This document shows positions 14,701 through 63,200 of a DNA stretch of 64,000 nt, piece by piece. The notes below the pieces were generated by a model. The model ran no database searches. It was not told the DNA's origin and worked only from the letters and a program-made list of their open reading frames with translations. The position numbers and the translations under genes are program-made. The number at the start of each line of letters is the position of its first letter. Position 1 is the stretch's first letter. The DNA is taken from positions 992,001-1,056,000 of the forward strand of contig OU612073.1 of assembly GCA_914767715.1 (NCBI GenBank). Direction: 5' to 3'. This DNA is from Membranipora membranacea (lineage: Eukaryota; Bryozoa; Gymnolaemata; Cheilostomatida; Membraniporidae).

Positions 14701-15837
14701 ATATATTTATGTTGTGGATGTGATGTGGAAACTGGCCAGATAATGATTGGAATTTATAATTTGGAGTTGTCTTATTTTGATCCAGAGTAACAAAACTCCC
14801 TGTGCACAAATACTCTTAACTATGTCGCCATGAATATTTATTTATAGAAGTTGTCTTGATGGTATTCAAATAAAAAATAGTTAAAGGCAACCTTTTAACT
14901 TCTGAGAAAGAAGAAAAGTGAAGATTAATTAGGCTACATGTGCCAAAATTATGTGAGAGTAGTATATGGGTGAGAATATATAAATTGCATTATAAAATAT
15001 ATCCTTCATTTCCACAGTACTTCATAGTTAATTACATAGTTCAGGTGAGGAAGAAAATATATATTCATACTCATCTGGCCTATACTATCCCATTTTTTCA
15101 GTTTTATGAAACAATTATCCTGATGGCTTGACGATCCTGTCTGTTCAATATGTGTATGGTAGATTGTGGGTGTTGGATATCAATATCTGCGTCTCCAGTA
15201 TAAAAAAATAGGAAACTTACAGGTATGAGATTCAATGGGGTGAGAATTCCCCGTATGCTTATTTGGTTTTTTTGGGCTATAAGTTCTACAAGATTAGCTG
15301 GAATCAAGGAATTTTCTAGATTACTTGAAATAAAAATCTCTCAATGCGATAAGTGACATAGCTTCTGCAGGTCAAGAACTTTTTCTACCATATAAATCGT
15401 TTTGAGTCATCAACAAAAATGATCAGAGTGATCACAAGATGACAGATGTGTGGTGACCTCTTCAGATGGGGTGTCAGTCGGTTGTTCTCCATACAAAGCC
15501 ATCGATTAGATAAACTTTGTTATTTCTTTTTGAAATAATATTCATCAAGCTCCACGGATCTTGATCAAACATGTCAACGATGAGTTAGCGGATGTGCATG
15601 TTTCTGTAAACATCAAAGTTAATCAAAGTCAAAATAATATACTATACTTCCGGCTTTTTGTTTTCATCCAGCATCTTATTTTCGTGAAAATAGAATGTGA
15701 CAAATTGATCTCAATTTCCCTCTCAGGACATTGGTTTTTGTTTGATGCCCTGCTGTAATGGTTGCTGTGACCCTTAGACTTAATATATTAAGTCTATGCT
15801 GTGACCCTCTGGTTCACTCTCACTGCAGAATCTCAAG
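11764..15837. other. Intergenic region between divergent genes
   Basis: About 4 kb separate the receptor kinase start (minus) from the lectin start (plus), so both promoters should lie here. I cannot point to a supported core promoter. A Cys-containing minus frame at 12039-12233 has no usable flanking splice sites and no signal peptide, so I do not call it. A short tandem duplication built on gtgacaggctaatggg lies at 12395-12445. The 26-bp palindromic insertion at 15773-15798 sits 40 bp before the lectin ATG. Confidence 0.55.
15773..15798. mobile_element. 26-bp palindromic micro-insertion with 8-bp target duplication
   Basis: A 26-bp near-perfect palindrome runs from CTTAGACTTAATA to its complement and ends in CTATG, with one mismatch between the arms. 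It is flanked on both sides by ctgtgacc (15765-15772 and 15799-15806). The terminal sequence matches the ends of the 2.4-kb foldback element at 18024-20404. It lies just upstream of the lectin start codon, probably in the promoter or 5' UTR. Confidence 0.7.
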
Positions 15838-18800
15838 ATGGAGATAGACACAATCTTCAATACTCAGAATTTGTTTCTAGCTTTATTCTATTTATGTGGT
15901 ACGTGTTCTCTCTGAATGGTTCTCAAGTTTTCAATTCTTCAGCTTCTTTTTTTTATCATTTGGCATAAATTGAAGTACATCGAAGTGAGTTGTAAAGTAT
16001 GTGAAAATCTTGAGCACTTGTCAAGTTCAATCTCTTGGAATATAACACTTCCATTGTGATAGCATATATACATAATTCTGATAATTTTAGGGGTGTTATC
16101 AAATGGTGTTCAGCCGTATGATGATATTTACCGAAACGATCAGGGAGACAGCGGCAGCTCCTACCTGATACAGATCCAGGCTGCAGGACGAGAGATCTGT
16201 TCTCTGGCATGCCTGGAGATAGACTGCTTTAGGTTCAGTTTTGATTCACAGTCAAACAAGTGCTTGCTGGACACATGTCTTGGCGAAGATATGGTTTGGA
16301 ATTAATTAAGCATAATGTTTAAACCACTGCTGACGCAGCTGGGCATTGCCCAGCAGAGCCACCAGACAAAAATTTGAATAGAAAGTTGTGGCATCAAAAC
16401 ATCTAGCCAGTAGCTTTGCATGGAGTTATATGAGCTCTCAAAAAGTAAGGAGTATCTTCTTCCCCAGCCATACGCCATTAGTGATGTCAAAAGTTGACCC
16501 TGACCAATCAGCTGCCTCTAAAATCTAGCTGAGATCCAACACTAATAAAAGCTAGCTTTAATTTGAATTATTGCTTTTGGTCAGGGGGTCTTTCTAGTAA
16601 GACAGTAACATAACTATTCAATAAGCACTTGATAAGTGAGCGAGACGTGCAAGAGACCGAATGAGCAAATTGATAGCAAAGATCTGCTCCAAAATGCATT
16701 TTTTATTCTAATTGAAAGCCCCTCTGCGTCGTTACAAAACTGAGACTACATCATGATTATAAACACTTCGCCTCTTCATTTTCAATATAAATATACACCT
16801 TATTTTATCTTTGGTTTAACAGGAATGTTCAACAGAAGCTCAGGCGGCCATGTTTATAGATCCCTCCAGTACCCTGTCAACCCAGTACTCTCTAGTAGTG
16901 AGTGATTAGCCTTGTCACATGGCTACTTTTTTGTTTTTGGGGTGTAGCCTTGTATTTTTGGAGAAAATAAATAAAAACAAATTGATTCCACTTAATAATT
17001 ACAGTAATAATTTGAAAAGTATGTAGTGTACAGATTAGAACTCCAAATTAGAAGACAACTTCTCGCACGATGTCCAAAAATACAAGGCTAGTGGGTAATA
17101 CAGTACGCCTTGACAATACACCGCTCTCTCATGCATTTGATTCATAAGTAACATTTGGTCAATAGCAGATTTGACTGTTTAGTTTTTTACCCTTTATTTG
17201 CCATTTATCTTTGCCCTCTATAATACCGAAGAGCATTGCAAGTAGAGAAATCTTGGACATGTGTTAAGATGTGCATGATTTACAGACTACTAAACTGATT
17301 TTAGCGAAAGATATGAAACATAGTGCAGTACAAGCCAGCACCATTGGTAATGACTACTCTGGTTCTAACATTGTCGATGGGTATTATACACCAGATGAGA
17401 GTGCGCAGTCATTAGTCGATTCACTGATGGCTTTAGAGATCCAGCAAGATCCATGGTTTGAGATCGACCTTGAAGATGACTTCTGTATAGAGGGCATGAA
17501 GTGCTGGCTGAGACCTGATAGAGGTAAGTTGAATAATTGAAGTACAGTGCATTACCTTGAAACTATGAAAAGTTTATTGTGTCAGCACCCATTATTCACC
17601 TGTATATATAAGCCTCAAAGATATCGATGACTTGATTGTGTTGTTTCTGTTGTCCAACATATTGATTGCCTGTTTGTGCTTATGGTTTTGTATTGATAAC
17701 TCTCTAAAGTCTTCCATATTGAAGCCAAGACAGAAACCTGAATTTGTCACTCAGCAGACAGTACGTTGCAACACCTCAATTTATTCTCCTGTTGTGTTGT
17801 TTATGAACCATGCTGTCTGATTCAAGACGATTCAACAGTAATGAGTTTCGACCTTAGACTTGATAATAAATTTAGATACTAGCATCAAAATCCTGAGGCA
17901 CTCAATCGTGGGATGACATCTAATTGATGGTGTTATCATTGATTTGCAGTCCTCTTTTGAAATTAGCAGTAGTAAAGAATGACTGCTAACAACCATTTTT
18001 TTCAGTTGCACAGGACCTGGCACCATAGACTTACTATACTACCTAGACAGGCCCATTCTGCTTGCAGGATAGCCTTGTGACATAGTCTATCTCTGCAGCA
18101 CAGCAGTGGTGGCGCTGCCTTCCATCAAGAAAGGCAACTCCCAGGGTTCAAGGTTATGAGATATCAAAACCAGTGTTCCATTTAGGCCCAAATAATTCCA
18201 AATTATGGGTTTCCATTGTTTTCCCAATTTTGGTACTCAGACTAGGTGAATTAGTTCAAGCCCTATGCTGCAGAGACGAACGTATGCCTCAACAGTTCGC
18301 ACATGCGCAGACTGAGACAGGCCAATAGCATTCAATACTGTCCCACTTAAATAGCACGACATGACGTAATTAGTTTGTGCTGTGAGCCATAGTTTACTAT
18401 ATATCCATCAATGAAACAATGTGAAAAATCAAGGGACGCTGGGCATGATATCAGCCGCTGTCCAGCCCCTTATTATTCAAACACAAAGAAAATTGGTGAG
18501 TGTATGCAAAAGACCTTTCCGCACGAGATGGTATTCATAATTTGTCCCCAGAACCAGAACTTTTTATGATAAGAGACAATCATTAGCCATTAAACATTGA
18601 AACAAATACAGCCATTTACCCTCAGCACTTCCATCACTTCCTATAAAAATGTAAAGAATACCTATAACACAAGATCACAAATATTTTGTTGGATAAGCCA
18701 GATTTAAGCACCAGCACCACCACCATCATCATTTTCTCCTTAAAATTCTTCGTAGTTGTGACTGAACACAGTCTGCTCATATTGGATTGCTAATTTTATT

Positions 18801-20594
18801 GTCGCTTCACAAGGAAGAATAGATCTGTGCTGTTTAATGAGTATGCAAACTACAGATAGCTGTTGTTCCTGAGTACGTAATGATGAAGCTAGAGTATTGA
18901 CAATAACTTAAAATTATTATCGTTCAGTACTGTAGTCAAAATCTAATGGCCTTTACCATGGCCGAACTTAATTTTGCCGGTGCCGGTAAGGTTCTTTAAG
19001 TTTATAAATGTGATATTGGCGTCAACAGTGAATGTCAATTAGAGTGATATTTGAAAAGTACAATTCTGGTAATGATCATTATTATTATTCTTATCGTTGC
19101 ATTCACATTATTTTTTTTCAATAGTTTCAATAATTCCCATAAAAACTATTTCAGCTTCGATCTAGGTGGAGCCCTGCAGACATCTCTATACTTCTCAAGA
19201 TAGTGCAGCACAATCAACAGTGATGTCTCCTTACAGAGGGATGTTTTAGTCATTGCAGAAGGGGTTCTTGCTGCTCATTAATTCAAAAACTTCTCTGGCT
19301 GTCTAAATAAAGGGTTCAGAAACGTTATTTTGTGGCTCAGACTGGGTTCTATACTAATAGCCATTATTCATACTAAACCTTCGCTCATACCAACAAAAAT
19401 TTATTGCACGCTGCGGATCGGTTTGTGCTTGTGAGCAGCTGTGATTCATATGAGCATGCAACTCTCGGCTGAGTCAAGCAATAATGCTGGTGATCATTTG
19501 GCAATTATTTTCCAGTCTTGGAAATGATTAGAATCACTGCTTCCATCCTTGATCCTCTGTAGTCTCATCATCACATGTTGTTCCATTTTCTCAGATGATG
19601 GCGTGTCATGTTGTAATAACTACTTTTTTCACACTGCCGTGTCTGGTCAAGGAAGCAATTGACATTCACTGTTGACGCCGATATCATATTGATAAACTCA
19701 AAGAACCTTACCGGTATCGGCAAAATTAAGTTTGGCCACAGTAAAGGCCATTAGATTTTGACTACAGTACTGAAGTATAATAATTTTAAGTTATTGTCAA
19801 TACTCTAGCTTCATCATACGTACTCAGGAGCAACAGCTATCTGTAGTTTACATACTCAATTTACAGCACAGATCTATTCTTCCTTGTGAAGCGACAATAA
19901 AATTGGCAATCCAATTTGAGCAGACTGGTTGTGTTCAGTCACTACTAGGAACAATTTTGAAGAAAAAAACGATGATGGCGGTGATAAGATCTGGCTCATC
20001 CAACAAAATATTTTTGATACTTTGTTATAGGTATTCTTTACATTTTTATAGTAGTGATGGAAGTGCTGAGGGTAAATGGCTGTATTTATTTCAGTGTTTA
20101 TTGGCCAATGATTGTATCTTATCATAGAAAGTTCTGGTTCTGGGGACAAATTATGAATACCATCTCATGTGGAAAAGTCTTTTACATACACTCACCAATT
20201 TTCTTTGTGTTTGAATAATAAGGGGCTGGACAGGGGCTGATATCATGCCCAACGTCCCTTGATTTTTCACATTATTCCATTGAATGGTATATAGTAAACA
20301 ATGGCCCACAGCACAAACTAATTAGTCATGTCGTGCTATTTAAGTGGGACATATATCAGTGGAGCATAAGCATTGTCCTGTCTAGGTAGTATATTAAGAC
20401 TATGCCTGGCACTCACCGTCGCCAATGATGGACAGCATGGCACTTATGCGCTCTGCGATGTAAGAGACGGCCCTCTAGATTTTGTTGAGAATGTGGAGTG
20501 TATTTCACCGATCTATGGAAGATATATGAAGGTTGTACAGCAAACAGTTGATCAGAAGTTACAGCTATATGAGGTTGAAATCTATGGGCATTAA
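15838..20594 (+). CDS. Secreted PAN/apple plus F5/8C (fucolectin-type) protein, last exon disrupted by a transposon
   Basis: Exons 15838..15898, 16091..16293, 16823..16897, 17286..17523 and 20386..20594 give 786 nt, or 261 codons plus stop, with all phases matching. Residues 1 to about 25 form a signal peptide (LFLALFYLCGVLS). A PAN/apple-like part follows (CSLACLEIDCFRFSF, then CLLDTC). The C-terminal half is an F5/8C domain: SNIVDGYYT, DPWFEIDLEDDFCIEGM, and the typical close GRYMKVVQ...LQLYEVEIYG. The last exon originally began after ttttttcag at 18010, but a foldback element inserted in it with an 8-bp duplication. The model above uses an acceptor inside the right end of the element, which restores the frame. 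Reading from the old acceptor gives a stop (CCATAG) at the element edge. It is probably a secreted, possibly carbohydrate-binding protein. I do not see the usual fucose-binding HxTxxR motif. Confidence 0.78.
18010..18023 (+). pseudogene. Stranded 5' fragment of the original last lectin exon
   Basis: After the acceptor ttttttcag, TTGCACAGGA plus the target sequence CCTGGCAC would continue the phase-1 codon left by exon 17286..17523 and read V-A-Q-D-L-A. It is cut off at 18023 by the inserted element. The continuation (TCACCGTCGCC...) is found only after the second copy of CCTGGCAC at 20405-20412. The two parts are now 2.4 kb apart. Confidence 0.75.
18024..20404. mobile_element. 2.4-kb foldback DNA transposon, non-autonomous
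   Basis: The ends are CATAGACTTAC and TTAAGACTATG, with about 28 bp of terminal inverted match (acctagacagg on one side, cctgtctaggt on the other). It is flanked by an 8-bp target duplication CCTGGCAC (18016-18023 and 20405-20412). Inside, two long imperfect inverted arms (about 18340-19040 and 19657-20350) enclose a loop of about 615 bp. The left arm holds roughly 290 extra bases (18052-18339) not present on the right. There is no transposase-like frame. The 8-bp duplication is compatible with hAT, P, Merlin or some Mutator-like transposases; the ends alone do not decide which. Confidence 0.85.
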
Positions 20595-20918
20595 CATTAC
20601 TTGGGAAAATCTGTTTTGCTAAACCTCCCTTGTCCTTCCCTGGATAGACCAATATATCACGCTCCTTCATATTATTTAACCTCGTGTGTTCTATTCTCAA
20701 CTCGGTAGTGACTGCAGCTTTATACGGCATTTTATAATGTCTGCAATAATTCCAGTAAACGCTAACACAATGTTCTATTTCAGTTTGTATCTGTGCTATT
20801 TTTTATTTTCAATTACTTTTTATCATTTGAACCTTTTAGTTTTTTAGTCATCAGCGGCAAATCCATATATCATTTCACTATATTATGTATGTACATGTAT
20901 ATATGTGACAACGAATTA

Positions 20919-20951
20919 AACCAAACCAACCCAACCAAACCAAACCAAACC
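20919..20951. repeat. CAAAC-type simple repeat
   Basis: An irregular pentanucleotide run (ccaaaccaacccaaccaaac and onward), about 330 bp beyond the lectin stop codon. It may be part of the 3' UTR or flank. Confidence 0.85.
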
Positions 20952-22239
20952 CTCATGACTATGACAACCCTGTGATGAGCAGCGACATGGTAAGCTGTTG
21001 GTTTTTAACTCTGTTTGATTTTTTTCCCCCAGCTGTCAGGATAATACCATTAGTTCCAATCAGCGGTTTGCCCATGGGCGAATATGTAAAGAGGGCCAGC
21101 ATGGTCAGAGTGCTTACAGGACACGCTGACAATTAAAATTGAAGTCAATGCTGACATATAACAGTAGGCTAGTTGGTAACACAGACATGACTATTCTTTT
21201 AGCAAGCTTTCAAACTGGATCGGCAAATGATATGTTATATATATATATGTTGTTATATATATGTTATGTTATACTCTGATGTAGGGTGATAAAGTCTGCA
21301 TTTTCACAAACGATAAATTATGATAGATGATAGATACCATAAATTCAATGTTGTTGTTGATCGCAGTCATTGTTCTCTGTAATAATTAAAAGAAATGTCA
21401 GCAATGCATAGGTCTCTATTGGGCCTATAGTTTTGCGCAAACTTGCTTGCGGCACTAATTTAATGTGATGCTAATGTAATAACTTTCTTATGAGTTCGGA
21501 CAACTACTTCAATAAATGATCAACCACTTAGATAAGCTTAGGATGAATGTGACCCCTTTTCTGTCAATTCCATATTTTTATGAAGAGAAGTTGCCGATTT
21601 AAAAATTGAGTAACAATTCTGGAAAAGTGTTGGCAGGCTTTTAATGAACGATTGTAGATGGGTTGACTATTTGAGGTACAATTTCTACAATACATGGCGA
21701 ACAAGCCATATTATGACCAAGCAATACAATCAATTATCATTAGCATAAGCACCATCATACAGTGAATGTCAGGCACAATGAACAACTTTTGAATCTGATA
21801 TAATGATATTGACATGAGTTGTTTTCTCCTGTACAAAGAGGAGACAACTACATAAGATAAGATATCAATAGAACTTGGAGAATCATTTACAAGATTTCCA
21901 TAGACTAATTCATTGGTAAAGAAGGACAGGCTAGGCTGCCAGTGCCAGGTTGCCGGCAATCATTAAGTAGAGTCAGCATTATTCAATATAAATAAGCAAG
22001 GCAAAGTTCTGTGAGATGGTCTGCCAACAATAAGCGACCAGCGAGCACTCAAATTTGGTGAAAAATGCAAATCTTGAAAAATGTATAGTCCAAAAGATGA
22101 TGAAAAGTTGGTACTGATTGAATGTTATATCGCGCATACTTCAATCATTTTCCACTGATTCCCTTTCTGCCATGAAAACAAGCCCACTTTTTAGCATCAA
22201 TTAGCTTAATGTTTCTTCTGGATGTTTTGGGTGTAAGGG

Positions 22240-22253
22240 CCCCCCCCCCCCCC
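22240..22253. repeat. Poly-C tract (14 C)
   Basis: An uninterrupted homopolymer of C in an otherwise AT-rich region. On the opposite strand it is a G-run. The exact length is the kind of feature that sequencing often miscounts. Confidence 0.9.
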
Positions 22254-22584
22254 GCAAGTTAACGCAGCACATTATGATCTTTGTTTAGCTAGGATCTTAC
22301 GCTACAAGGCAAATATTTCTCATTCATACATTACAAAGGAGACTGGTAAACAGTATTCATAGATATTGATACCTGATTACATTATTATAATAGCTCGATA
22401 ATAAGTACTTGATGGTGTCATGTAGGGGCGTACAGATTAGGGAAGTTGTTTTTATCAGATATGCCAGACAATCACTTAACCAGTCTAAATAATAACGAGA
22501 ATGAACCAGAAAATCCTCGACAAAAATTATCTTTTTTAATGCAGGTTGTTTTAATGATTTTGGATGACAAGATTGTCTTTCTCT

Positions 22585-22776
22585 ATTGGTGTTAGCAATG
22601 AACTAAACCTATTGGTGTTAGCAATGAACTGTTGGTGTTAGCGATGAACTATTGGTGTTAGCAATGAACTAAAGGTTTAGTTCATTGGTGTTAGCATAGG
22701 CTGAAACAACAGGCCTGCTACCACTCCCAACGGGCCGAGCGAAGCGAGCACAAAGATAGAGACTGTTGTTTCAGTC
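22585..22776. repeat. 20-bp tandem repeat with adjoining hairpin
   Basis: Four copies of attggtgttagcaatgaact (22585-22604, 22611-22630, 22631-22650, 22651-22670) and a partial fifth near 22685. They are followed by an inverted pair, ctgaaacaacag (about 22701-22712) and ctgttgtttcag (about 22763-22774), with a 50-bp GC-richer loop. A further gtgttag echo lies after the hairpin. Confidence 0.8.
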
Positions 22777-23581
22777 TAGTGTTAGCAGGTGTTAGAATCT
22801 GCTCTCAACTCAATCCCCCTTATTCAGTACGCCCCTGTAGAACATAAAGCTAAATTGATTCAGTGAGCTGATCATAGCTATGCGCTTATAATTTGTTAAG
22901 AGCTATCCATAGTTATTTCATAGATAAACATACAGGGCAGCAGATAAGCTCAAGTAATTAAGCTACACAGAGCAGGTAAGTTACTCAACACTTTACTAGG
23001 TTTAGCCGACATGTCAGTTGTCCACACTCGACTAGTAACCATCGCTTCTCCCATAGGAACATGACTGTATAAGGAAATAAGGAGTCCCATTCTGCTGCAC
23101 ATTATGATTGTTGTAAATGTTACAAATTACAAGTCAAATTGTGACACTATGTTTGGAGTTGAGGTTTATAAAACAAAAATGTTTGGTCACCCCATGCGTT
23201 CACATCTCTACGGCCATTGTGGAGTGAATATGTATGTAGCAGAGTACGTGTTATGTGGTCATCTATCCCAGGTTTATAATACATGTATTGTCCTGCTGAA
23301 GATATCAATCAGCGGATGATGTACTTATGATGGTCAGGTAGCCCGTCACGGTGTACACTCGTTTAACAAGGATATAGAGAATTGGCTTCTCTGTACATTC
23401 TACCTGGCACAGATTTCACTGTAAATTTCAGTTTTTAAAAGAAAGGGTTTGGCTGATGTATCTATGCTGCTCTAATAAGATGCTGACATATCCGACATCC
23501 TTCCTTAATGTTACACAGCAAGCCGATCGTAGAGGCCATTATAATGATGAGGTTTATGTACATATACTATTTCCTTAGACC

Positions 23582-26500
23582 ATGTGGAAATTGATAGCAG
23601 TACTAGCACTAGCTTCCTGCGTAGCAGTGAACGCTCAGGATGAAGAATACTGGGACGAGGGCACCACAGGATACATCCTACCTGTAACCGATGAGACAGT
23701 TGAGGAACTCGGTCTAGATGAGGTTGTTTTCCCAGATGGATATGAATGGCTCGTCATCTCGCTACAGCAAGTTAAGGTACGGATGACTTTGAATGATTCG
23801 ATATGAATAATAAATAAGATCAGATATCCATCTATTTGTCTCATATTACAGTAAAAGGACATCATTTTCAGTACACTAGCTGAGAATTATAGTGTAACGT
23901 AGCCTCCATTGAATGTTGAGAGAAGTAACTTCTCTCAGCATTCAATGATATGACATATCCCAAGCCTTAGAGCAAAGCAATGAGGGAGTTCATTGAGCAA
24001 AGGCACATTGAATACAAGGGAATTTCTTGAAAAAATTATTTGTATGTCAAGCCATTGGATTTATTCTGGATGAGGGGTATGTGGGGTAGCTTTGGTTAGG
24101 CTTATTTATATGACATATATATATCCTATGGCTGGAGAGAATTATAAGGCCCCTCGTCAGTCAGGACTTACTTACTGTAAACATTAGTGGCCCATTAGTG
24201 GAGTTTAAGATGAATGTCATTATCATCTTGATAATAATGAGACAGGGTATATAATTATTGTGATCTCCATCAGATGGGTTAGCAGATATGATATATGACA
24301 TTTATCATTATTACAATATGGAAGCTGAAGCTGCTTAGTGAATTGTTTGGTCTACGGTCAGAATTTGAAACTGTATTATTACTATCAGGTTGTCCCATGT
24401 ATATACCATAAACCCTCTATACAGGACAGGCCATTTGCCGTGCTGCCCTCTTTGCTCTTTCAGCTGTTTATTTTATTGTATCAAATTGATTTGTTAAAAA
24501 TTTTGTGGCCATCTATTTCCCTCAATCTCGCGTTTGTTAGTAAAACCTTAGTAGGCACAAGACAGCAAAACGGCTTAAAGTTAAAAGTGAGATCTGACTG
24601 TGATGTTTCTACCTGGTTTATGTTCACAGTTACCTGAGCTGTCTGTCGAGCAGCTGGCTGAGCTTGAGGAACAGATGACTGAGGAACACTTCAACTTCTT
24701 ACTCAACATGATGGATGATATCAAGTACGCAAGTACTGTAAGTTATTTCCACTCTATACCTATGTCAGATTTGCTGTAGATCAGGTTTAATCCAAATTGC
24801 CTGCATTCCATTGGATTGGGAGCAACTGTGAATGCAAGCAAATGGACCGAACTTGGTCTAGGTTTGCTTGATCGTTTTCTTTTCATTGCTGCTTGGAGTA
24901 AAGTTTTGAATGGTTGGTCGCTCGCTTCTCCAATTGTTGTAGTCTGCAGGGCTTTCTCAGCCAGCCAGCTTTGCCATGCAAGACAGCATGTCGTTTACTG
25001 AGATAACTAGCTTTACATAGTAATCATTGCTTAGCGTAATGGTAATGATGATTTTGTTAGCCATAATTCTAAATAGCTGCGAGGTGATTTTACTGATAAA
25101 TGAAAACAAACAAAACAGTCTATCACAGTCAGTTGATCACACGCTATCAGAGTCCACCTTGTCTGGCCTCTAGGTTATACCACAACCTATTCCCTTATGT
25201 CTACACCACTGGGTGATTAATCCTCTTTGTCAACACCACTGGGTGAATGGTTACGTTCTGGGTGAATGGTTACGTTCTGTAAGGCTGCAGAATATGATAA
25301 TATATACCAGGATGCAATTCAGGCAAATTTACATCGTTTCCACTCCAATGCCTAGGTTTTAATATAGCCCTATATAGTGACATAGCTGCTATGATAGTGA
25401 GTCACGGAACCATACATAACACTAGACCTACATTACTGGTCATATCAGGTTAATCAGCACAGAGTCAGTAATCTACCATCCCAAACATAGATTACAGCAC
25501 TCTGCAAGGAGGAAGTTCACTTACTCTGCGTCATAACCCACTCAGCTTTCAATTTAAATCTTAAGATTATATGTTAGATATATGATGTAAAGGTATAGTC
25601 AGGTTGATGAATGTTCAGGTTATGCCAAATGAAGAGCATTGTTACCAGAATTCTTGTTGATCAAATTTCAGACTTTGGATGAATAATACGAAAAACATCT
25701 TTTGTATATTATACTTGGACGCCATTTTATGTCTACTTAAAAAAAGCTGCACTGACTTGAATTGCAAAATCAATACAACAATAGATGTTCAGTAATGAGT
25801 TATTATATTTCTCATGAATAATGAATAGAAAAGTGTTTTTATATCGGAATTGTTTTTGGAGTAAACAGACAAAAAATCGATAACTAATCTAAATATAAAT
25901 ATGTTGTTGAACAAGGAACTGGAAGTGATGTAAGCGGGATTGGCTCTAAAGTTCATGCGGACTGACAAATAAGACTCAGGATAATCGGAATGGTGGGATA
26001 GCTGGTAGTAGCATTTTATTATCGACCACTTTCTCCCAGCTATCCCAACAATTTTTAAGCGCTTTAACTAGAATCTGTACTATTGATGATTGTGCTACAA
26101 TACAGCCTTCAATATAATAATTTTGTGATTTTAGCCTGAGGATTTTTATGATTACGGGGATGGATCGACAACCTTTGACCCCCTTGTCTTTGGTGAGGAT
26201 GATGAAGAGCGGGTAAGTTCTGAGCCTATGTCTGTTCATCCTTCTCGGCAAACATACTGAATCAGGATCGTTGGATCCCCAGGTGTGCTCCGACCTGCCT
26301 ACAAACTGAAAGCAAATTGGCGCCACCCATTCTTCGGAATGAGGCGCGTGACTGAACCTTTTGAATTTAACCAGCCAGCCCCTATTTAAACTTTGAAGCA
26401 CAAGCCAAAATATGGCCTTGTTCTGAATAATTTTTAAAGAAGACATTATTTACTCCTATGGAACTTTTTATCAAACCTAAATGCATTATGGGATAGAATA

Positions 26501-30230: not shown

Positions 30231-33200
30231 TCACCTGTTGGTGTCGTCACCTGCCATTTTGACAGCTGAGCTGACAGTATGCTTTTGCTCCTCATATAGA
30301 GTTCTGACGTGATCGACGAGTAAGACCACCTGCTCTGCGATGACAGCGCTGGCACACTCAAACTGAGGATTACGTGTCCGATAGTGACTGCCTCCTGATT
30401 CGCTCAGCTGGGTGACCTTCACCTCCAAATAGTGCTTTATCGAAAAGTCCGGCCTCTCTACAAGTATAAAAAAAATTGGTGTCCAATAAACCTCGTTGCG
30501 CTTACCAAATTGCACTATTATTTGGTTTTAATAACGTGTACACTATATTGACCAAATGAAGTTATTATAAAAGTTTGCAGTAAGGTAAAACCATAGAATT
30601 ATTATTAAGTCTATGGGTAAAACCCACCTTTCCTGACATAGCTACATGCTAGGATGTTTGACAGCGGGGCCTCTAGCAGCGACCCTTCCATGGGTTTTTC
30701 GATCCTGATGATGTAGATTGACTGATCTGAGGCTAGCATACTGTATGAAGTGAGCCCCAAAGGAAACAGCTTTATATGGTCGATATACCTACAGAGAAAA
30801 CGCAGTGTCATGTTTATAAGGTGTTCTGATGGTATTATTACGTGTATATATATTGAATACCATGTGTCCGATAAACAGCCTTGGAGCAACGAACATACAT
30901 GAGAAATTAGCAACACCAAGGTACATGGAATCGCTCGCCACTAAAATGTTTACCACAGCATTGGGACAGCATATATTTTGGTAATAATATTTTACACAAG
31001 ACTACACCATGGTTAAGCTGAACCAGCTAGCATTGTATCATCTTTTGTATATTACGGCAACCTTGTGTTTAATTACATTAGTGGAATGTTATAAATATCT
31101 CTACTGAGCCCCTAACAGACGACTGTGATTAGTGAATCTAAGGCTACCCTCTGACATACCTGTCATGTGATCTGCGCTCAGAGTTGAGGAACATGACGCT
31201 CTCCTGACCCCTGGCTGACCTCTCACTGTAAACAGGAAGTAATCCGCTCCTACCATAACAGCACCTTGTGAATCTCCGCCTCTTTATGTTGACCACACCC
31301 CCTCCACCACCTTCAAAACATTGTAGTATGCGTCAATAATAATAAATATCAATTTTATAAGCTTTATAAGAGTTTTTGGGGCTAAAACTAATTAAACCTT
31401 TATCGTTTCTATGACTGAGACTTACAAATGACATAATTTTTTCTGTCTTAGTCAACAGATGAGATGGGCACATAGCCAAAATCAGCACATCCTTCGGTTA
31501 GCTGATACTAAGTTTAATGCGTTCAACTCTAACCCTGTTATGTCTGGATTTTGTATTATTGTGAGACGCAGGAAAATGGAGTAGGGAGTTGGATTTTTGT
31601 TCAATGAGCGTGTCTGTCATCTGATACATTGTGATTCACTCCGCAGCTTTCCACTGTATCACACAAAAGATGATGATAGATGATGAACTGATAATATGTT
31701 TGATGAGACAACAACATTAAGAGGTCACTACCGCCCTTCTTATAGATAATCGCATGTCATCTCGTGACATCCCAATATTCCACAGACTGATCATATTTGG
31801 AGTCAGCTAATTTAAGTTCTCAAATTCCGCCTACAGTGCTGGTAGTGGCATTTCATTAAATCCAATACAACATCACAATTCAATGTGATTTGAAAATGGA
31901 ATGTATCCATCATCGAACCGGGCGGGCGGAGTTTGAGCCTTTTTGCTAAGAGGCAGTGAATGTAATGACATCGTGTGGTGACGTTGTGTCGTGTGACATT
32001 GTGTCGTGACATTGTGCCGTGACCTCATGTCGTGACATCGCGTTGTGACATCGTGTCTTACCTGATGTATCTCTGATGGCTGTGGCGGCGCCTGAAGCAA
32101 AGTCTAAAACTCCCACTACTGGTTTAGTGACTGTCCCCACTAACCCTTTACCTAATCCCGTCAACATTCCCTACAATCAAAATATATATATATATACATA
32201 ATATATATATATATATATATACACATAATAAATTATCAAATATCTTAGTAGGAATAGTGGATGCAGGTTATATTATAATCGCCCATTTTTATAATATGGG
32301 TGTCAATTCTCGTAGCACTTTAAAACTTGAAACTTGATCTTTGTATGCACACATGTCACGTATATAAGCTGTAGATTACCTCAAGGCCACGCTGTGAAGC
32401 GCCATCATAAGTCTGCTGAGCGATACTCGTCAATCCTCCCATTACACCGTGAGTTAAACTCTTAAACCCTGAAACACAAACATCAATCTAGTGTAAGTAA
32501 GGCATCCAAGGAAGAATCAAATACTAACAATGGGAGTGTGCTTAAATACTCACACACACAGTAAGCGGAGAAACACACATAGAAGAGATAGCTAACTCTG
32601 ATCTTTGGCAACTTCGACTGTTTAAATTCAATTCATTACAATATTCATAATTTCAGCATAGCGATTAATGGTCAAATGAAGCTGAGCATAAAACATAATA
32701 TGAGATGATGGATAGCTTGTATCTTGTACTTTTGTTTAACCTATGAGTGATTTTAGGATTGTTATTAGGAGGAGGGAGACATGGCTGCTATGAAAACAAT
32801 AGCTTAAACAAGTGAGCAAGCAGACCTTTACTGATCCCTCCTGTCAACAAATAAAAATAAAACTTGACATGAAACCATCACATGGATAAACCAAACATCG
32901 CATAACTGTGCATTTACAAATAATTGACAGAGCCATACAAAGTATACAGTATAATGTGTACTGTATGTAGCCTTACCTAGTAGTACATTAGACCCTGTAT
33001 ACTGTTTCTTTATGAGATCTCTTGACTCATCATGTTTATCGTCCATAGTCATCCAGCCCAGTCCATGAGACAAAGTACCTGCCACCTGTAATCAGACATG
33101 TCATCAGTCATAATCAGCAAAATTAGCCAATAGAATACTGCTCAGGCAAGTATAGGGTGTTTGTGAGCCAAATGCCGTAATGAACTTTAGGAATCGCACT

Positions 33201-36200: not shown

Positions 36201-39200
36201 TTGCAATCTCTTCGTACTTTATCTCATCAGTGGCCAAACAGCGACCATTAGAGATAGGGAGACTGGTGCAGTGAATCAACCAGGTGTCTGACAAGCATTA
36301 ATATCAAGGATACTCACCTATAACATCGAGTACGAGACTATCGGGCTGTGAGTCTGTTAGGGAGATGTAAAAGTAGTTCTCATACTCAAGATGTTCTCCT
36401 TGTCCGATAATATCCATATTATACACATTCTCAGAGGAGCCCATATCACAGTGTATAGAACATGTGAGGAAGGAGGGAAGGATAGGCTCGTCCCAGGCGT
36501 ACGACACTGTATAAGTAAGAGGTACTCAGTTATATGGGACATTTAGAGGAACGCTGACATCCAAACAAAGTGTTTCTTTCAGGGCAAAGCGGCCTTATAC
36601 TCTCAGCTTGGATACATATTGTCCAGCATAAGGTGAATAGACGCAAGGCCCAAACCAAGATCCTCGTATTCTAGATTTAATTGGATATACCACTCCAGCA
36701 TAGTATACGTTCCAAATGTTCCCAAAACGATTTTTCATGTTTAGGGATGATAGGCATACATTATTTTAAGAATCTTACCACTAGAAGTTGGCTTCACAAT
36801 AGTTTTATATGACTCATGTGAGATATTAGTCTGCCAGTATTTGAGACTAAGATCTGTATAGTTCTCTATCCTCATGGGCGGGGGTATGTCAGACGCATCG
36901 GCTATGATTGTTGTAAATGTAGAACCCCGCAATACTGTCTCTATCTTCATCAGAGTACAAACTCCGCTCTCAGAATTCCTAAGAATTAAAGGAACTTATT
37001 GAACCGAACTATGGCGCGATTTAGGTATTGATGGTGAAGGGGACGGCCCACCCTTCAATATATCCATGGGGTTATCGCAACACTAAAACATCCAGGACAA
37101 CTCTTAAAATATCAAACAAACTCTTAACCTTACTTCTTAAAAAATAAAACTGTGATCTATGACTTTATTTTTAACAATCGTAAAGAGTTCTGATCTTTCT
37201 ATTTTTTCATCTTTTATTTCTTGGGGACATTGAATTTCAGGAAATCTTGTATGTGAAATGTAAAATCAACCCAACCTGCAAACAGAGAGCAACCTGACAC
37301 AAATACTAAAATTTGGCTGCTCATGATTTGGGATGTGGCGTGTGATAAGATAGGTTTTAATAAACTCTTTTTAATAATAGATAAATCTTACCTGATATTG
37401 ATGACGAGTGAGCTGAGCTGATCTATCCTAAATCCACCAGACCACAGAGTATTAGGTATATCCAGTATCTTCACACAGAGCAGCTGATCGAGGTCCTGTC
37501 TCGGCCAGTGATACGCCTGACTGGCTCCGGGTAAGGACGCCTGATACATCTCCTCTCTGTTAGCCTGAGAGCATGTGGTAAACATTAATAATTAGAGTGG
37601 GGTGATACAAACACCAGACTCACAAAAACATGAGATAATGCTATGTCTGAATTCTTCGAATGGCGCAAGTTTTATGTTGCATTGTCTAAATACATATTCT
37701 GGCTCAGTCAGACAGGGGATAAGATATAAAAGCTTTGTCAGGCTTAAGGATTCATTCCCAGTGTTTGAACTTTGGTGGCTATTTTGGAATATCATCATAT
37801 CATACACTGTGCTCTAAAACATTGTCTTGGTAGCTTCAATCTATACTTGTGATGTTACGCCCTGATCACATAGTGACTAAACTCAATATATAGGTGCAGA
37901 GTGTACATTCAAAGGCAGTTCTTCAAGGTACTTAGACATACCTGTGGTTTAGTGAAATGTTTCTGAGTGAAGGCTAACCGATGACTGGACTTATTTATAA
38001 CTTTATTACGAGGTACGAGTACAGTCATCATCGTATCATGATATCGTCCCACACCTCGAGATGTCTCTATACCGATGTTATAAACCCTGTGTAAATACAG
38101 CAAAGGATTAGGCACGGTGGTGATTAGTCTAGGTGCTCAGACTCCAAGGCGCAGGGAGTTACTTGCGCAAGCTATCAAACTCCTCTTGAGTTTGATAGCT
38201 TGCGCAAGTAACTCCCTGCGCCTTGGAGTCTGAGCACTTAGACTAGGTGGTGATATATAAATAGGCTATAGGTATATTTATGTATGTACCTTTGTTGTGT
38301 CAATGCTGATAAAAGATGTGAGCTGACAAAAAATATGATATAAAAGGGATGATAATAAAAGTAAAAAAGAAAAACTATTAAGACTGGTGTTTGATTCCTC
38401 GAAAGCAGTGGAGATTTTAAACACAACACCATTGAACTCCATATTTAATCTAGTGCACGACACATATCATTCATTCTCAAAGTTCAAAGTAGAATTTACT
38501 GATGGAATTATATGCCGAAGTGACTGTCGAGAGACCCAATATTGATATTTACTCTCTAACCATGAGCTGTATGGTGGTCTAGCGATATCTGTCTTATTCT
38601 CTAAGGAGTCGATATGTCACACATATCACGGTAGTTAATACTCACCACTCTGGTCGGCCATTGTGAGGCTGAACTCGAAGTCTTCTGACATCATTTCCTT
38701 TATCTGTAGAGAATCTATGACTCCATCCACAGTTACTAGCTGGATGTACACTATTACCAAGTCTCATCAGGCATCTATACAGCGAATACACTACATTGTA
38801 ATGTTCAACGCACTCATGTCCAGAAATCTAACACAAGATTTCTGTTTTGATATTTGACATTACTGTGAAAACTTTCCTTGCCTTTGCTGCCTCAGATTGG
38901 TTAACTTAACAATGGAAAACTTTTTTTAATCAAGTAGATCCATATAGCAACTATTTGGCGGATCAAATTATCATCTCAAATCTAAATTTGAAAACTCCAT
39001 GCGAAATAGTAAACTGTAGATTCCCACATAATGGTTTCTAGCCTTGTCACATGGCTATTTCCGCCGGACAAGGCTAACTGTTCTCAGCTATGTTACACAC
39101 ATGACATATATAATTCATTAAATTATTTATAGTGCTGACTGCTGACTGCTGACTGTTGATACATACAGATCTGGGTGTTCCCTCTCAGTATAAGAGAACA

Positions 39201-54200: not shown

Positions 54201-57200
54201 TAGTCACCATCTTCATGTCTCTACAACGGAAAACGATCAACGACGTATAATTTGCTGGATTGTTTTGGCGTTGAACAAGGCGCTATATGGAGTAACCTCA
54301 TGCTGTATCCTCCATGAACACAACTCTCAGTCTTCAGATCATATTGATAATTTGATCACAAACAATAAATGCATCGATATAAACAAACCGGAAAAGACAG
54401 AGTAATGTATGGAGGAAAATCAGATGAACAAAAATTTTTGTTGATACTAAGAGCTTGAATGATCATATTTTTGTATAATTTATATGAATATAAAATTTAA
54501 ATATATATTAACTTCAAATGAAAATGATATTGACATATACCTTATTTGTATGCTGATGAGATCGGAGGCAGACACCGGGGTGTCATGGTGCCAGTCGACA
54601 TTCCTCTGATTAGAGATTGTCATTTTACCGAGCTCTGCTACTAACACCTCAGTAGAGTTATTGTTACATGGTAACACTAGCAGTGGAGCATCAAGAGTAA
54701 CATCAACATCGCATAGTAACACTACAATACATACCAAAACATGTGATTAATAAGGGACACAAGAAAAGCTCACATCTGAACCTGTGCCCATCATAAGGTA
54801 AACGCCATGACACACTGGCTGATTAGATGCAAACTGATATGAGCTTACATATTTAAGGTCAATTTGATATACCGTCGTGGAAAGTAATCAAAGGAGGAAG
54901 GTTCATATTCCAGACTATGAATAGGGACTTTCTTAGCTAGCTAAAATTTTATCAACATCATACCTCTATATGAACTCCCACCTTAGCTGTTGAAGATTTT
55001 TGCTAGCTAACATTTATCTACCCTAAAACTATCTAAACCAAACAAGTTTATATTCAATCTTCTAGGGTCTAAGGGCCTAAACACAGCAATATGTAAAAAC
55101 GTAAATAAAGTTTGCTTACTTGGCTCCAGTTTAGGTCTCTTCTTGTAGACATAATTCTCAGCAACTTCGCTGGCCGCAGCTCTCAGCTTCTGTTTGGCTT
55201 TCTCAATATATTCTACAAAAAAATCAGAATGAATGAATGGGATAAGTTGAACATACCTGCCTCCACGACAAAGATCTTGTCCAGTTTTTAATGCTTGAGC
55301 TGCTGACTTGTAAAATCATAACCAAACCAGCATAATGGTGATGTAGCTTACTACTCTCCTAGAATCCTCATTCTAGCTAATTTAGCTTTAAAAATGAATG
55401 GAAATAAAAATTAAATAGTACAGCTTTCATCACAAACATTACTAGTAAAGCGCAGTAGCCCCAAAGGTTCTCGACAATTCGAATAGATAGGCTCACCTTG
55501 GAAAAGCGCTACAGATTGAGCGACATCATTAAGGAATCTGGGTACATGTATATACTGTATAGAGCCGATACACAGTGATACACTATCAGTGTTAGACGTA
55601 ACGTCGTCAGCTTTGCTGTATATCAGATTCAGCGCCTTCCTCTCCTCCGGTAAATTGAGGTTATCAACACAAGTCTGCAAGTAAATATATAGTCATAATA
55701 TAAAGCTGGGTCTTTTATTGTATGATCAGCCAATTTCTTATAATTGTGAGTCTTTAAATTATACCATTTGCTTAGAGGAACATCAAATCAACAAACGATT
55801 GAGTTTATACAAGCTTGTGATAACCTGCCATAATAATATTCAAATGTTAACCTGCATATATCATTCATTAAACCATTGACATTAACCAACAAACAAAACA
55901 AACAGCAGTTATTCAATATTTGCTATTTCTGAAACATGTGCTCTCGGATAAATGTCAGACAAATCACCCATACCTGGTACATATGAGCAGGTATAGTCTG
56001 ATCCATAACAGACGTCTGCTCATCATTCATACTACCAAAGGCGAATACATGAGAGTGGACTGAGTGTGTGGAGAGATCAGTGACCTGTAGACCTCCGAGC
56101 TCAGCCTCTACTGTAGAACTACTACCACCGCCTGAGAATGGAAGGTAAATACTCAGAGAGAAATAAGACATGTGAAAATGGCTAAAGACTACCCAGCCAC
56201 CAAAGCATATTATAGTCAGGCAGTAACTTATGATAAAGTTTTGTCAGATTCGCATGGTAAAAAAATTCATTGCTTAATGCTTTATCATAAGTAACTGCCT
56301 GATCATAACATACGCTGGTCGAGTAGTCTTTAAGATAACATAATGAGTAAGTTGAGGTAGAGTGGAAATATGAATGATTGGTTAAAGTATTTATGTTATC
56401 TATTCAAAATCTGAGTCTACGAGTCGAGCTTCCATCGCCAACATAGATTAAATGCTCAACCTTGGCCTTGGCTGCTGAAATGTTATTACCGGCAGAGTTT
56501 AAAGCTTAATCAACACAACACCAAAAAAAATAATAATCCATGAACTGAAGTTCCACTTCACTTACCAATGGAAGAATCTATTCTAGCACCCATCATACTG
56601 ATCATAGCCACCTTATATACACTAATATAACCTGGAGTTATGAGGTCACCACCAGAGGGCCTCAGAAGGTCACCACTAGGGGGCCGCAGTGTGGACGATG
56701 AGGTAGCAGGTCGATGCAGGAGAATATTGAGCTTTCGAAACTCGGCTTGGATTGTCATCAAGTCAGTCGACTGGAAAAAAGTTAATATTCTTATTATTTT
56801 CATATAGTCAAATTCAACCAAGTGTTGATATTAATTATCTCAAGGCTAGCCATCACTACAATTCACATATGACAAGAGATATAGCAACCAATGAGATATC
56901 AATCAGTTAACAATTCAACTGTTAACAACTAAATTGGATCAATGAACTCCCTCGAATACTCAATGCTCAATGGATGTTCAATGTTTTGTATAGGTCTGCA
57001 GAATAATCTCAATGTATAAGGCGGACATTTAAAAATGGTCTTTTGTCGAGGACATCACGGTAAGCCACACCCACAATTCATATGTGTTGTTCTTCCTGGG
57101 GGAGAGAGAGTTCATTGATTTGATGCAGCAAGATTACAAAGAGCTATCAATAAGCTGATATGAAATAAACTAGGCACAAGAAAACATGTTGCAAGTCTCA

Positions 57201-60200
57201 AACCCAGTTGTATTGATACATACCTGGTTATTCTCTGGTTTATCATGTTGAGTATTTAGTTGTATGTGAGTTGAGTCTGTAGTTGAGCTCATAGATTGAG
57301 TAGAAGGCTTAGGCATTACTTCATTGAAGAAAGCTAAGAGTTCTACTATCGTCTCTTGGTTAGCTTGAAATATAATATATCAAAGCTCAGCATACTGTGT
57401 TAGGCAATTTTAAGTGATTGATTTGGTGGTGAGAAAATCTTAAACTCATCTGTAGTGTCTGTCCTTATAATAAATATTATATCTATCATGTATGTATATT
57501 ATTCATGAACGTGTCAGCTTTAACAGTAATATCGAGCGTACTATCCACCAAAGAGTAGTTAAAACTTGTTAAATGATCAGAATCATTTTCTTGACAACTG
57601 TGACAGACGATCTTTCATCAGTACCAGAACTTGAACAACTAGATACCATGATATAGTTTTATACCGACTAGTATTCGTTTTTTAAATGAGCCACAATCAG
57701 TCACTTAATTTTGCTCGATCCTTGATGAACGCAACCAATAAAATATTATCTTAGCTTATATGTTTTGTTCTAACGATGTAAATTGGGAGGGAGCCTACGA
57801 AAGTACTAACCGACTAAGTCGAGTGTGTTGAATACAATGTCTACATTCTTTACTGTCGGGTCTCCCGCTGATTCAGGCTTAGCCTGAGAGAACTCTACTT
57901 TGATGAGAGGATCACCAACAAACACAGGTGATACGGGACGGTGATCTGATGCTGATAGAGAAGAGGGCCTGAGGCTAGACGCGCTATGATCTGTCATAGG
58001 GGTGGCTGGTAAGTAAATTGAGACATTATAAAAATAATATGGTGACATGTTACTTAATTTAGGGCAGAGGGTTGTCTCGCCAAAACAAACAGGGTATCGC
58101 TATATCTCAGGAGTCAAATTATGAAACAATCATAGACATGGAAACTGACAACACGGGCCATGCAGTGCACTATGGTATTCACATATCAGTTAGTGATATT
58201 ATCTTACCATTAATAAGTTTGACGTTAGTAAACACCTCTAAACAAATGAAGGAGAATGACATAACGTGATTATGCATGAACTCGAAGCGAAATTCAACGC
58301 TCTGTATAATCTGAATACATGATATAACAGGTGATTCATTATGTACACCTTGACAATGGACATGGCATACACTGAGGAATGTGGCTCACCTGTTGCGACG
58401 GGTAAGAGTTTCTGTATACCGCTGAGTACAGCGTTTTGGAAGCTTGTGTAGCTTGTCTGTTTGCGAGCGGGTGGATGTAGGGACTCTGGATCAGGTGATC
58501 TAGGAGGAGATCGGGGAGACATCGGGGAGGTCGGGCTGGTGGGAGAGGCGATGGCTGAACTACACATACTACCACTCTTACTATCCAACCTGCTCAGAGA
58601 AAATAAAGAGCTAATGAGACATGAGGTCATGGAGGTCATCTAAAAATATGCTCATCTCACAGTGGTTGTTATAGAGCCAGTGCTCTAGTGGTAATTACAG
58701 ATTGCATACATAGCTAACACCAAGCCACTGCCGTAAATATTACTGTTGTTAACACATTACTTTCTTGAGGGAAGTCATCCTTTGGCTAACAAGTATAAGG
58801 TTGTTTAATCGACTACTATAATAGAAAAATTCTAAGTTCCAACATGGCCAACGTAGCTCTATACAGCTATACATACCCAACATTTCTGTGAGACGCTACA
58901 AGAAGTTCAAAATCAGGTCCATAAGACTGCAAGGCATCCGCTACTATTAGACTGTGGACCGTCAGTGATAGATCGGACTGTGAGGGGAGCTGAGTAAAGT
59001 CCGCCTTTACTCCGGCAACCTGAAGCTCAACCAGGCAACGTTCTGTAAGAACCAAATGTACAGTGAGGTAGAAGTAGGTTCGGAATGACTGGACTGGATA
59101 AGACATAAGACAAAGACTCTCCATATGTGTCAACTGTATTTCCATAGCTAAAGCTTCATCCAATTTGAATACATCGGGAGTTGGTCCCTTGCCGGTAGAT
59201 CAAATCAATTGGAAATGCAAGTAAATTGGATCAAACTTAAATCTAGCAATCTCCAATATTGGTTGGCGAAGGAAACTCAGGTTAGTGCACACAGACCTTT
59301 ATTGTTGATATCGAGCGACATCTGATGGATATCCAGTCCACAAGTTACAACTCTGGAGTTATCCAATACCTTCCTCGTCTCCGGAGGAGCAAAGAATCTA
59401 AAATCAACAAAGGTATAAGAATATTCATCATAAGTTTTGATTTACATTCAATGATCATATATTGAGCGGAAAACTGCTAATGGGCTTGTAGTTATAGTAA
59501 TATTTTATCATCATATGATACACATGCAAGCTGTTGTATATTATATTTACTCTAATAAAGCACACCAAAACATAAAACTGTTAGCTTCGAAAGATAAGTT
59601 ATACAAATGCAGTGCTTATTGCGAAAAATCCGACAATTTTGAGTGGCTGTTGTAAGACTGTACGCTCAAGGAGGAAGATAATATACCTGCTCTCAGAGTG
59701 AGACAGTCCAGCTGAGTTTTGCTCTTTGCTCTCACTAGAGATATTTTCTTGTGATTGCTGAGGCGTGACGGATGGTGATTGGTCACTTCCTCCTGATGTT
59801 AGCTTATTCAGACAATGACTGAGCTGACTCAGCTTTAACTCAGATACATGTATAGATAGACTCTCCATAATGGCTGATAGTTTGATGGCTGGCCATTGCG
59901 GGTCAGCAGTCAGTAGTAACCGTCTGTACACACACACAAAAACAGTCTGAATTGAATTGACCAACACTGAATCTGATTGACTATTGATGAAAAGAGGAGA
60001 TGAAGCCAATATGTTCTCTCAATTGGCCTACCAAAATGTTCTCTAGAGTATTCTAGTGCAAGAAGTCCAGGATTGTGTAAGTAGATCATATGGCTTATAG
60101 TTGTTTTCCTTCTCAGAGAGGCAAAGAGTATAGGGTTTTGAGCCAAAAGGCTGGACAAAACACAAAATTACCGATGTCAAAGAATGTGCACATACAGTGA

Positions 60201-63200
60201 TTACCATTTGGTTTGTTTGTTTGTTGAGAATATGTACTCGGGAAATCAGGCGTAGTATTAACAATAATTCTCTTCGCTACGCACAGATTATTTTATATGC
60301 CAACTGAAGTTACACATACCTCTCAAATAGGACATTAACACTAAGCTTGTCTATAATATGTAGATGACTGAATCCTTTATTTGTGAGGAGTCTCCAGTTA
60401 TCTTTACGATTAACAATGAGCACCTGTATATCAGCTAACAGCACCTCATATCTACAGACATAACAACCATACTGACATAAATATGTACATTTATAATATA
60501 CATATAGACACATATCTGCATAATATAAACTATACATACTAACACACACATCTACAGCCATGATGAGCAGGCAGTAGAAGAATGGATCCAGATCAATAAG
60601 ATTATTTAACTCAAAAAACTCCAACAGACAATGAATGGTGTCTGGTCCTTACTTAGTAACTTTCAGGAAACCTTAAAACCTGGTGTATTACAGTTAGGAA
60701 ACTTAGAGACCTCGGCTCTCTAGTGACAAGATATCTGAATATCCTAATTTTCTAGGCTTAGGATTCGTTGACACTCAAGTTTTCCATGAGTAGGAAACCT
60801 TGAGATCCTGTTAATAAAGGGAAGGAATGCTTGACGTCCTATTTTCCTAGGGAAAAAATGCAAATGGCGAGTAATTTCAGAGACTACGCCGCAGCTCAAA
60901 GCGAATGAAGCTGTTGCATAGTGTCCTCTTATCTTGGTATTATCTCCCCCTTACCTGTCATACATATGAGAATAGAGATTATCTCCAGTTAACACATCAT
61001 CACTTATAGAGTCAGTAATGGGTAGAGCTTCAGACTGTCCAGCCGAATCAGAGTCTAACTCAGGAGGGGTCGACATCGGGGTCACAAAATCATCTGTAAG
61101 AAAAGGATGAAAAGAAAACACTATCTATGAAGCAATCCCCTCCAATATTTTACCCAATAGCAATAGTTTAAATCCCCTTCAAAGCACCTTTCTGCCCTAA
61201 CAAGTGTGGAAACCTGATGGTCATAACCAAACTTGCAAAAGGCGTCACCAATGACAAAACATTAGGAGGCCAGCATTTTTCAAATACTGATTGGCTGATA
61301 TTGGTGATGAGTTGACATTACTAATGAAAATGAACATTTAAATTTTCAAGCTATATCAGGTAAGCATACCTTCTTCGATTAGTTCTTCTCTGTCGCTGAG
61401 ATCCTCGACCCCACCTATGCTGCCGATATCGTCCAGAGAATCGTGATCAGCCTGACTGTCTCTGAGATTACTCACCTGAAGTCTGCCCAGATCAAACACT
61501 ACCATAAAAGTACGGCTATCACTGAGGTCACGAGGTACTATCAGCTGAGGGGCGGAGATATCCAACCGCAACCCTACTCTCTTAGACTGCTTCTATAATC
61601 ATATAAGATAACCTCGTTGAGCCTCAGATGGTATGTTATCATCGACTTAAGATGTTTCTTGTTTTCAAACTTATTCAATGATATATATTAAGGGCAATGT
61701 TTTTTTTGTCATAAGTCAGAGTTTCAAGTATTATATTATTAGTATATTACTGACAAGTTATTAAATTTGAGTTGTTGAAAGGAACCTTTTTCACTCAGAT
61801 AAACCAATCTTAAAGCATTGTTGGAATGAGGCTGTGGTTTGTATTGTATATAATCATCAATGTGTTGTTGGGTAGAGCCAAACACATAATATAATATATT
61901 CATATTATGATATATATTATGGTTATCATAATATAATTTATTATATATATAAAATAATATAACACTATTATATTTATGGGATGAGCAGATGACCACAGAG
62001 ATGAACTCACAACAGTAGAGGTATTGAGAAGATTATCCCATGTATCTCTGATGTCTATCTTAGTTTTATTCTTCAGCTGTTCATAACGTCTCCGCGCTCT
62101 CTCTACAATGAGATAAGAGAAAATAACCTAGATGAGTTAGAAGCAGCGAGATTCTAGTTGGTCCTTTTTGTGTGTGAGATCTATCTGGACAAATGATTAG
62201 ATAGATAAAAACCATGAATAAGGGGATAGTGTGGCCCTGTGTGGGAATACTCCAATTTCAAACATTGAGTTTGTTTTCAGTATGAACAGAAAATATGAGG
62301 CCGCTGCATAAGATATTCATGGGTATCACTCATAGAATTATTATATAATAACTCTATGGTATCACTGCACAAATTTGGTCATTTGAATATGAGACCAACT
62401 CCAATATGAGGTTAATCATTGAATAAAAAATTTGATCACACGTTCCCCGCTGAAAACTAGCACGCGCATATTGCACTGTATTTCATAACTGTTATTTCCA
62501 TCTGTTTTAAAGTGCATCAACTTGAGTGAACATTCTCATCAGAGAGGTATCAGATGATACAAATATATTATACAGTACATCAAATAAATGCCAAGATAAA
62601 AAAAATATTGTGTCTTTATACAGTTACCTGCCAGATGGAACTCAGATAATTCTTTACTCATTGTAGCCTCAGCTCTCCTTCGAGGTGAGAAGAACTGTTT
62701 GACTTTAGTAACCACCCCCTCATTGTATATAATATCGAGGGCTTCAGTCTTCATCTTCACTTTGATATCTTTACTACTCTGAGGCGGATTTCTCTCAATC
62801 TCAAGGAAGAAAAGCTCAGCGGCTGGCTCCTTGTGGGGCGACGGAGATTGGTTAGACTTGGATAGCAATCCTCCCAGACTACCTCCGAAGGAACGGCTGG
62901 CTGCCTCCTGGTAAACATTATCAAAAGAAGACATTACCTTGAGGATGTTGATACTTCTGGGTATGGAAACAAGTTAAGAAATAACAAGAATGAACAATAA
63001 ATGATAAAATCATTAACTTAAAAACAGAAACCATCAGCTGTGAAGATAAGCTGTACTGACCAATAATGAAGTAGCTGAAATCTGTGAATACCAATTCAGT
63101 GAGAATCAGGATTGCGAGAAGTATCACATAACAACAGCAAATATTTTTACTAGAAAATAATCAAATCTTTTCAAAATGTAGAAATATTTCAAATTTCATA

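Follow-up and report, generated by a model that had tools for sequence, protein, structure and literature searches.

Short CATAG-ended palindromes in the Membranipora membranacea genome as probable excision scars of P-superfamily transposons

Results

The short CATAG-ended insertions found in the window, i.e., the whole 64,000-nt stretch of Membranipora membranacea contig OU612073.1 that was analysed (coordinates without a contig or locus name refer to it), are very probably footprints left behind by excised DNA transposons of the P superfamily. A first-pass annotation had read them, together with a 2.4-kb foldback element, as one transposon family whose smallest members are little more than two joined ends. 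The relatedness, the reality of the target duplications and the existence of transposase-bearing full-length relatives are upheld, while the view of the small units as transposons in their own right finds no support.

As annotated, three near-palindromes of 24-28 bp with CATAG-type ends are present, each between copies of a perfect 8-bp duplication; none was assigned a strand. Scar 1 (15765..15806) contains a 26-bp palindrome at 15773-15798 (CTTAG...CTATG) with ctgtgacc on either side, and is made of two 15-nt tips of the CATAGACTTAATATA type, that of the 2.4-kb element, which overlap by TATA, the left one with one mismatch. Scar 2 (30584..30623) contains a 24-bp near-palindrome at 30592-30615 with ggtaaaac on either side; 16 nt of CATAGACTTAATAATAAACCTAGACAG, a known TIR, make up its right tip, and its left tip, CATAGAATTATTAT, is of another subtype. 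Scar 3 (62323..62366) contains a 28-bp palindrome at 62331-62358 with gtatcact on either side, and its tips are CATAGAATTATTATA and CATAGAGTTATTATA; a parent TIR for this scar (62331) was looked for in this analysis and not found. A Pfam scan of two open reading frames of the window yielded no family at E 0.001.

That these units are fortuitous palindromes, or simple hairpins of AT-rich sequence, has a next to negligible probability. The bare pattern CATAGN{10,30}CTATG does occur at chance level in the window (2 matches vs a shuffle mean of 1.98), is unusable alone and to that extent favors chance, as does locus L188, which resembles a plain hairpin. The excess in the window emerges only when inverted repeat and duplication are required in addition to the ends, a combination found three times vs 0 in 300 Markov windows. 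A looser scan with the CATAG condition off gave 4 matches in the window vs 4 in 200 Markov windows; the fourth match, at 38171, was rejected as a hairpin unrelated to the CATAG units. The surrounding region, 38163-38207, is a perfect inverted repeat in which TTGCGCAA flanks a 29-bp hairpin on either side; since the TTGCGCAA 8-mer is self-complementary, it forms a single palindrome with no CATAG-type duplication.

The first-pass annotation had also called for a genome-wide search for CATAG-N(10-30)-CTATG, which returned 9884 sites vs 5623 for the reversed pattern, an excess of 4261 above the control. Three family-specific patterns gave 125, 26 and 380 forward matches and 0 reversed controls, which again argues against chance, and a 200-kb sample not chosen for the presence of such units contained 4 matches, 2 of them convincing, vs 0 in five Markov versions. 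Target duplications were checked at 24 palindromic places picked by eye among the matches listed from the start of contig C1: 14 had 8/8 identical positions and 6 had 7/8, the others having 6, 4, 4 and 2 of 8; L118, another place among the matches listed, had 8/8. Among the same matches, 1/17 non-palindromic places, L170, which may be a decayed scar, reached 7/8, and 16/17 had 5/8 or less. The chance reading is thus already contradicted by this duplication control (20/24 palindromic vs 1/17 non-palindromic places among the matches listed). A few palindromes, namely L160, L187, L188 and L226, carry no duplication and do not sit easily with the excision reading. The duplications of at least 7/8 at fetched scars were mutually different in 45/45 cases, with a base bias toward G at position 1 (30/45) and C at position 8 (32/45).

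The 2.4-kb element (18024..20404, no strand assigned) is a non-autonomous, foldback-type element with long inverted arms which, as the first reading had it, shares CATAG-type ends and an 8-bp duplication with the micro-palindromes; the duplication, CCTGGCAC, lies at 18016..18023 on the left and 20405..20412 on the right, both on the plus strand. The element starts with CATAGACTTACTATACTACCTAGACAG, its opposite end, read inward, is CATAGTCTTAATATACTACCTAGACAG, and a CCTAGACAG block is found at TIR position 19. Tested coding matches were all negative. Judged from its TIR and 8-bp duplication, which are as in an autonomous P element, it would belong to the P superfamily. The motif CATAGAC.TA...CCTAGACAGG is common to this element and the full-length element L144 described below, and BLAST of the 2.4-kb element vs L144 or L145 detected no similarity longer than the end motif. 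A diverged relative occupies 7166-8462 of locus L140, with 81-88% identity in pieces and the end CATAGACTTAATATACTCCCTAGACAGG. Scanning of viral contigs with the TIR gave 0 matches; a scan of a genome-contig collection with a 15-bp tip gave at least 80, which were set aside, as the 80 listed are prokaryotic and matches of this kind are expected by chance at that collection size.

An autonomous relative with the same ends and a transposase, another item on the list of the first-pass annotation, was found. The P-transposase RNaseH domain PF21787 had 134 matches in the 339-Mb, 18-contig assembly and was detected in 0/14 control genomes. Of the eight transposase loci that were fetched, three proved to be complete elements whose CATAG ends lie between perfect 8-bp duplications: L144 (4,933 bp, GTTAGATC), L169 (4,922 bp, 98.8% identical to L144, GAAATACC) and L145 (5,972 bp, AGGAAAAC). 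The two ends match over the first 30 nt in L144 and L169 and with one difference in L145, and those of L144 are inverted over about 0.5 kb at 91% identity. Together with these ends and duplications, P-transposase domains place all three elements in the P superfamily. L144 encodes THAP, HTH, RNaseH N and C domains and a GTP-binding insertion; in L145 the HTH, RNaseH N and C domains and the GTP-binding insertion were identified, and THAP was undetected in the two open reading frames scanned. A three-sequence profile run against the PDB matched P transposase 6p5a/6pe2 at 1.5e-36; the L145 transposase as a single-sequence PDB query gave no match. In the other five loci (L142, L143, L166-L168) a CATAG-ended pair was not found, and they were put down to different P families, to truncated copies or to host genes; L142 and L143 carry related 762-aa P-transposase reading frames with no CATAG-ended pair within 7 kb, and would be either a separate P family or a host gene.

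In the proposed mechanism, a CATAG-ended P element would insert with duplication of 8 bp of target, and P transposase would later cut it out, so that each flank would keep a single-stranded TIR tip. During end joining, the AT-rich tips would pair through a short stretch of microhomology, or filler would be added, so that the product would be a tip/tip palindrome between two duplications. For the three window sites we infer the act of excision; end joining would be the repair pathway at the scars, by analogy with Drosophila. In Drosophila, donor-site repair can leave the tips of the two element ends between the duplications, either overlapping by 1-3 nt or joined with filler (PMC2895639). The P excision junctions of Drosophila melanogaster resemble the scars reported here in having an 8-bp duplication, a TIR tip from either end, short microhomology or filler at the join, a palindromic form and AT-rich tips (PMC2895639; PMC7776569 for the general anatomy).

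The junctions were analysed in the L144 family, whose pattern CATAGACCTACTAN{0,30}TAGGTCTATG accounts for the 125 forward matches and 0 reversed controls. Of the 125, the 55 sites among the matches listed were taken, or 51 after four rows of one repeated set on C2 (27.65-28.10 Mb) were dropped; shared flanks were shown for two of these rows, and C2:27887160 and C2:28103284 were dropped on position and sequence. In the scars fetched, not those of this family alone, both duplications are kept, and only TIR tips with microhomology or filler lie between them; L205 and C2:24052247 are exceptions that do not fit the excision reading simply. Duplications at 20 consecutive L144-family sites among the matches listed were 8/8 in 16, 7/8 in 3 and 5/8 in 1. 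Joins were filler-free in 34 of the 51 sites and contained filler in 17; an overlap of 2 nt was present in 18/34 filler-free joins vs 32% for random joins (P = 0.010). L199 and L202 are longer, with 8/8 duplications and repeated TIR-like pieces inside, which by analogy may correspond to the templated filler of fly junctions.

It is very unlikely that the palindromes are instead micro-transposons, i.e., 24-28-bp two-tip units cut and pasted in trans by P transposase. Such units would account for duplications that are perfect and all different, and for short junctions that recur unchanged at unrelated sites (L210 = L219; L214 = L227), the commonest of which is present at 6/51 sites among the matches listed. 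Against this, the 51 sites carry 33 different junction sequences (among the matches listed), and the recurrent junctions with different flanks are short microhomology joins; in the fly data joins recur as well, one 2-nt join being found in 14 isolates (PMC2895639, Table 1). Many near-identical copies at unrelated sites, as expected of a MITE or micro-transposon, were not found, short recurrent joins being the exception. Identical longer units, fetched as three multi-copy sets (six on C7, three on C2, two on C3), have common flanks on both sides, 92 bp long (65 and 92 bp in the C3 pair), which means that they were duplicated together with the surrounding host DNA; the C3 pair has duplications of only 3/8 and may not be a scar. 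Self-mobility is further opposed by the absence from the small units of internal sequences reported as required for P mobility (PMC1562414, PMC7776569). Because of the site-to-site variety of junctions, a family-specific limit of the tips, microhomology or filler at the joins and the flanks common to the three fetched sets, the small units are read as excision scars, and the earlier view of them as the smallest mobile members of the family is unsupported.

Several loci record the later history of such units. L190-L195 (G000:C7, 22.17-24.65 Mb) are six occurrences of one 63-bp filler scar with shared flanks, so that the scar is a marker of segmental duplication. L207-L209 (G000:C2, 27.65-28.03 Mb) are copies of one scar with shared flanks and lengths of 45 vs 48 bp, a difference suggestive of AAT slippage after the duplication. 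At L148 (G000:C1:304986-305167) a tandem pair of scars is separated by atcacagt, as if one target had been hit and then vacated twice. On G000:C3 (21.79-22.41 Mb), eight scars of equal length, 34 bp, lie inside 0.6 Mb and are perhaps one scar, locally duplicated.

Deletion products of interrupted gap repair are known for P elements. The palindromes could on this account be internally deleted P elements, some stripped of nearly everything, and L205, which retains 17 + 41 nt, and C2:24052247, a 54-bp unit retaining the whole TIR including CCTAGACAG, fit it. The account is nevertheless very unlikely, as deletion ends should scatter along the element, whereas L144-family tips exceed 22 nt in only 1/102 (among the matches listed), and the L144-family pattern at 31-61 spacing has only 18 matches (0 reversed controls) vs 125.

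Under the excision reading, tip lengths bear on the position of the inner cut. Tip counts cover exact matches to chosen TIRs among the matches listed, with tips that are AT-rich and repetitive and sites that are partly non-independent. The L144-family TIR is CATAGACCTACTAATAATAAA|CCTAGACAG, with a 21-nt spacer, and the 102 tips from its 51 sites are at least 18 nt long in 77, 19 in 62, 20 in 37, 21 in 16, 22 in 5 and 23 in 1; at L213 and L203, tips extend to 24 and 25 nt, which the excision reading does not simply explain. At L158 and L215, 20 + 20 nt are joined filler-free between 8/8 duplications. Drosophila P transposase cuts one strand at the transposon end and the other 17 nt inside (PMC7776569). 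Unlike the Drosophila tips of up to 17 nt (PMC2895639), L144-family tips among the matches listed reach at least 18 nt in 77/102 and at least 19 nt in 62/102, and the limit varies by family.

A related family, CATAGACTTAATAATAAA|CCTAGACAG, has an 18-nt spacer. Among its 274 tips (137 + 137) of at least 15 nt, a count with duplicate copies left in, 13 are at least 19 nt long, one of them C2:24052247, vs 62/89 tips of at least 15 nt that extend to 19 nt in the 21-nt-spacer family. Yet the exact continuation is present in 329/368 intact 18-nt-spacer ends, taken as those that share the initial 15 nt and carry CCTAGACAG. A fixed cut, scaled from L144, would predict about 191 tips reaching 19 nt among the 274, and a cut set by the motif and shifted by 3 nt about 18; 13 were observed. 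Median scar length was 37.5 in 46 L144-family sites vs 33.5 in 58 shorter-spacer sites (P = 0.003), once seven of the eight 34-bp scars on C3 (21.8-22.4 Mb) had been removed. As tips end about 3 nt sooner where the TIR spacer is 3 nt shorter, the cut appears to be placed from an internal TIR motif, and we moderately favor an inner cut set from the CCTAGACAG block, with an overhang that follows the spacer, over one fixed 17 nt inside the end. In the L145 family, median scar length is 26 (histogram of 32 sites), a change in the same direction, a CCTAGA block begins at position 15, and the 32 sites have longest tips of 13-18 nt, eight sites of another subfamily being left out; since these tips extend a few nt into the CCTAGA block, the ruler is inexact across families.

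Discussion

Like the elements described here, the Anopheles gambiae P elements and their P-MITEs combine a P transposase, 8-bp duplications and non-autonomous derivatives (PMC1562414). The P-MITEs keep up to ~100 bp per end and are mobile, whereas the scars keep ~10-22 nt; the word 'footprint' is absent from the main text of that paper (PMC1562414). Galileo, a long-TIR member of the P superfamily from Drosophila, resembles the 2.4-kb element, and L144 with its inverted ends, in its long, foldback-like inverted repeats; the 8-bp duplication and CATAG ends of the present elements may set them apart from it. Among the papers listed by searches of an open-licence library, no title or abstract opening dealt with genome-wide P excision scars or spacer-dependent cuts.

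The palindromes require no new class of minimal transposon. P-element excision scars are recognisable in an assembly, where the bare pattern stands 4261 sites above its reversed control; lost insertions can therefore be counted, and their joins read for cut position and repair. Should the overhang indeed track the spacer of the TIR, Drosophila's 17-nt cut would be one setting of a ruler, and the scars of a single assembly would offer a natural record of where transposase cuts and how the ends tend to be joined.
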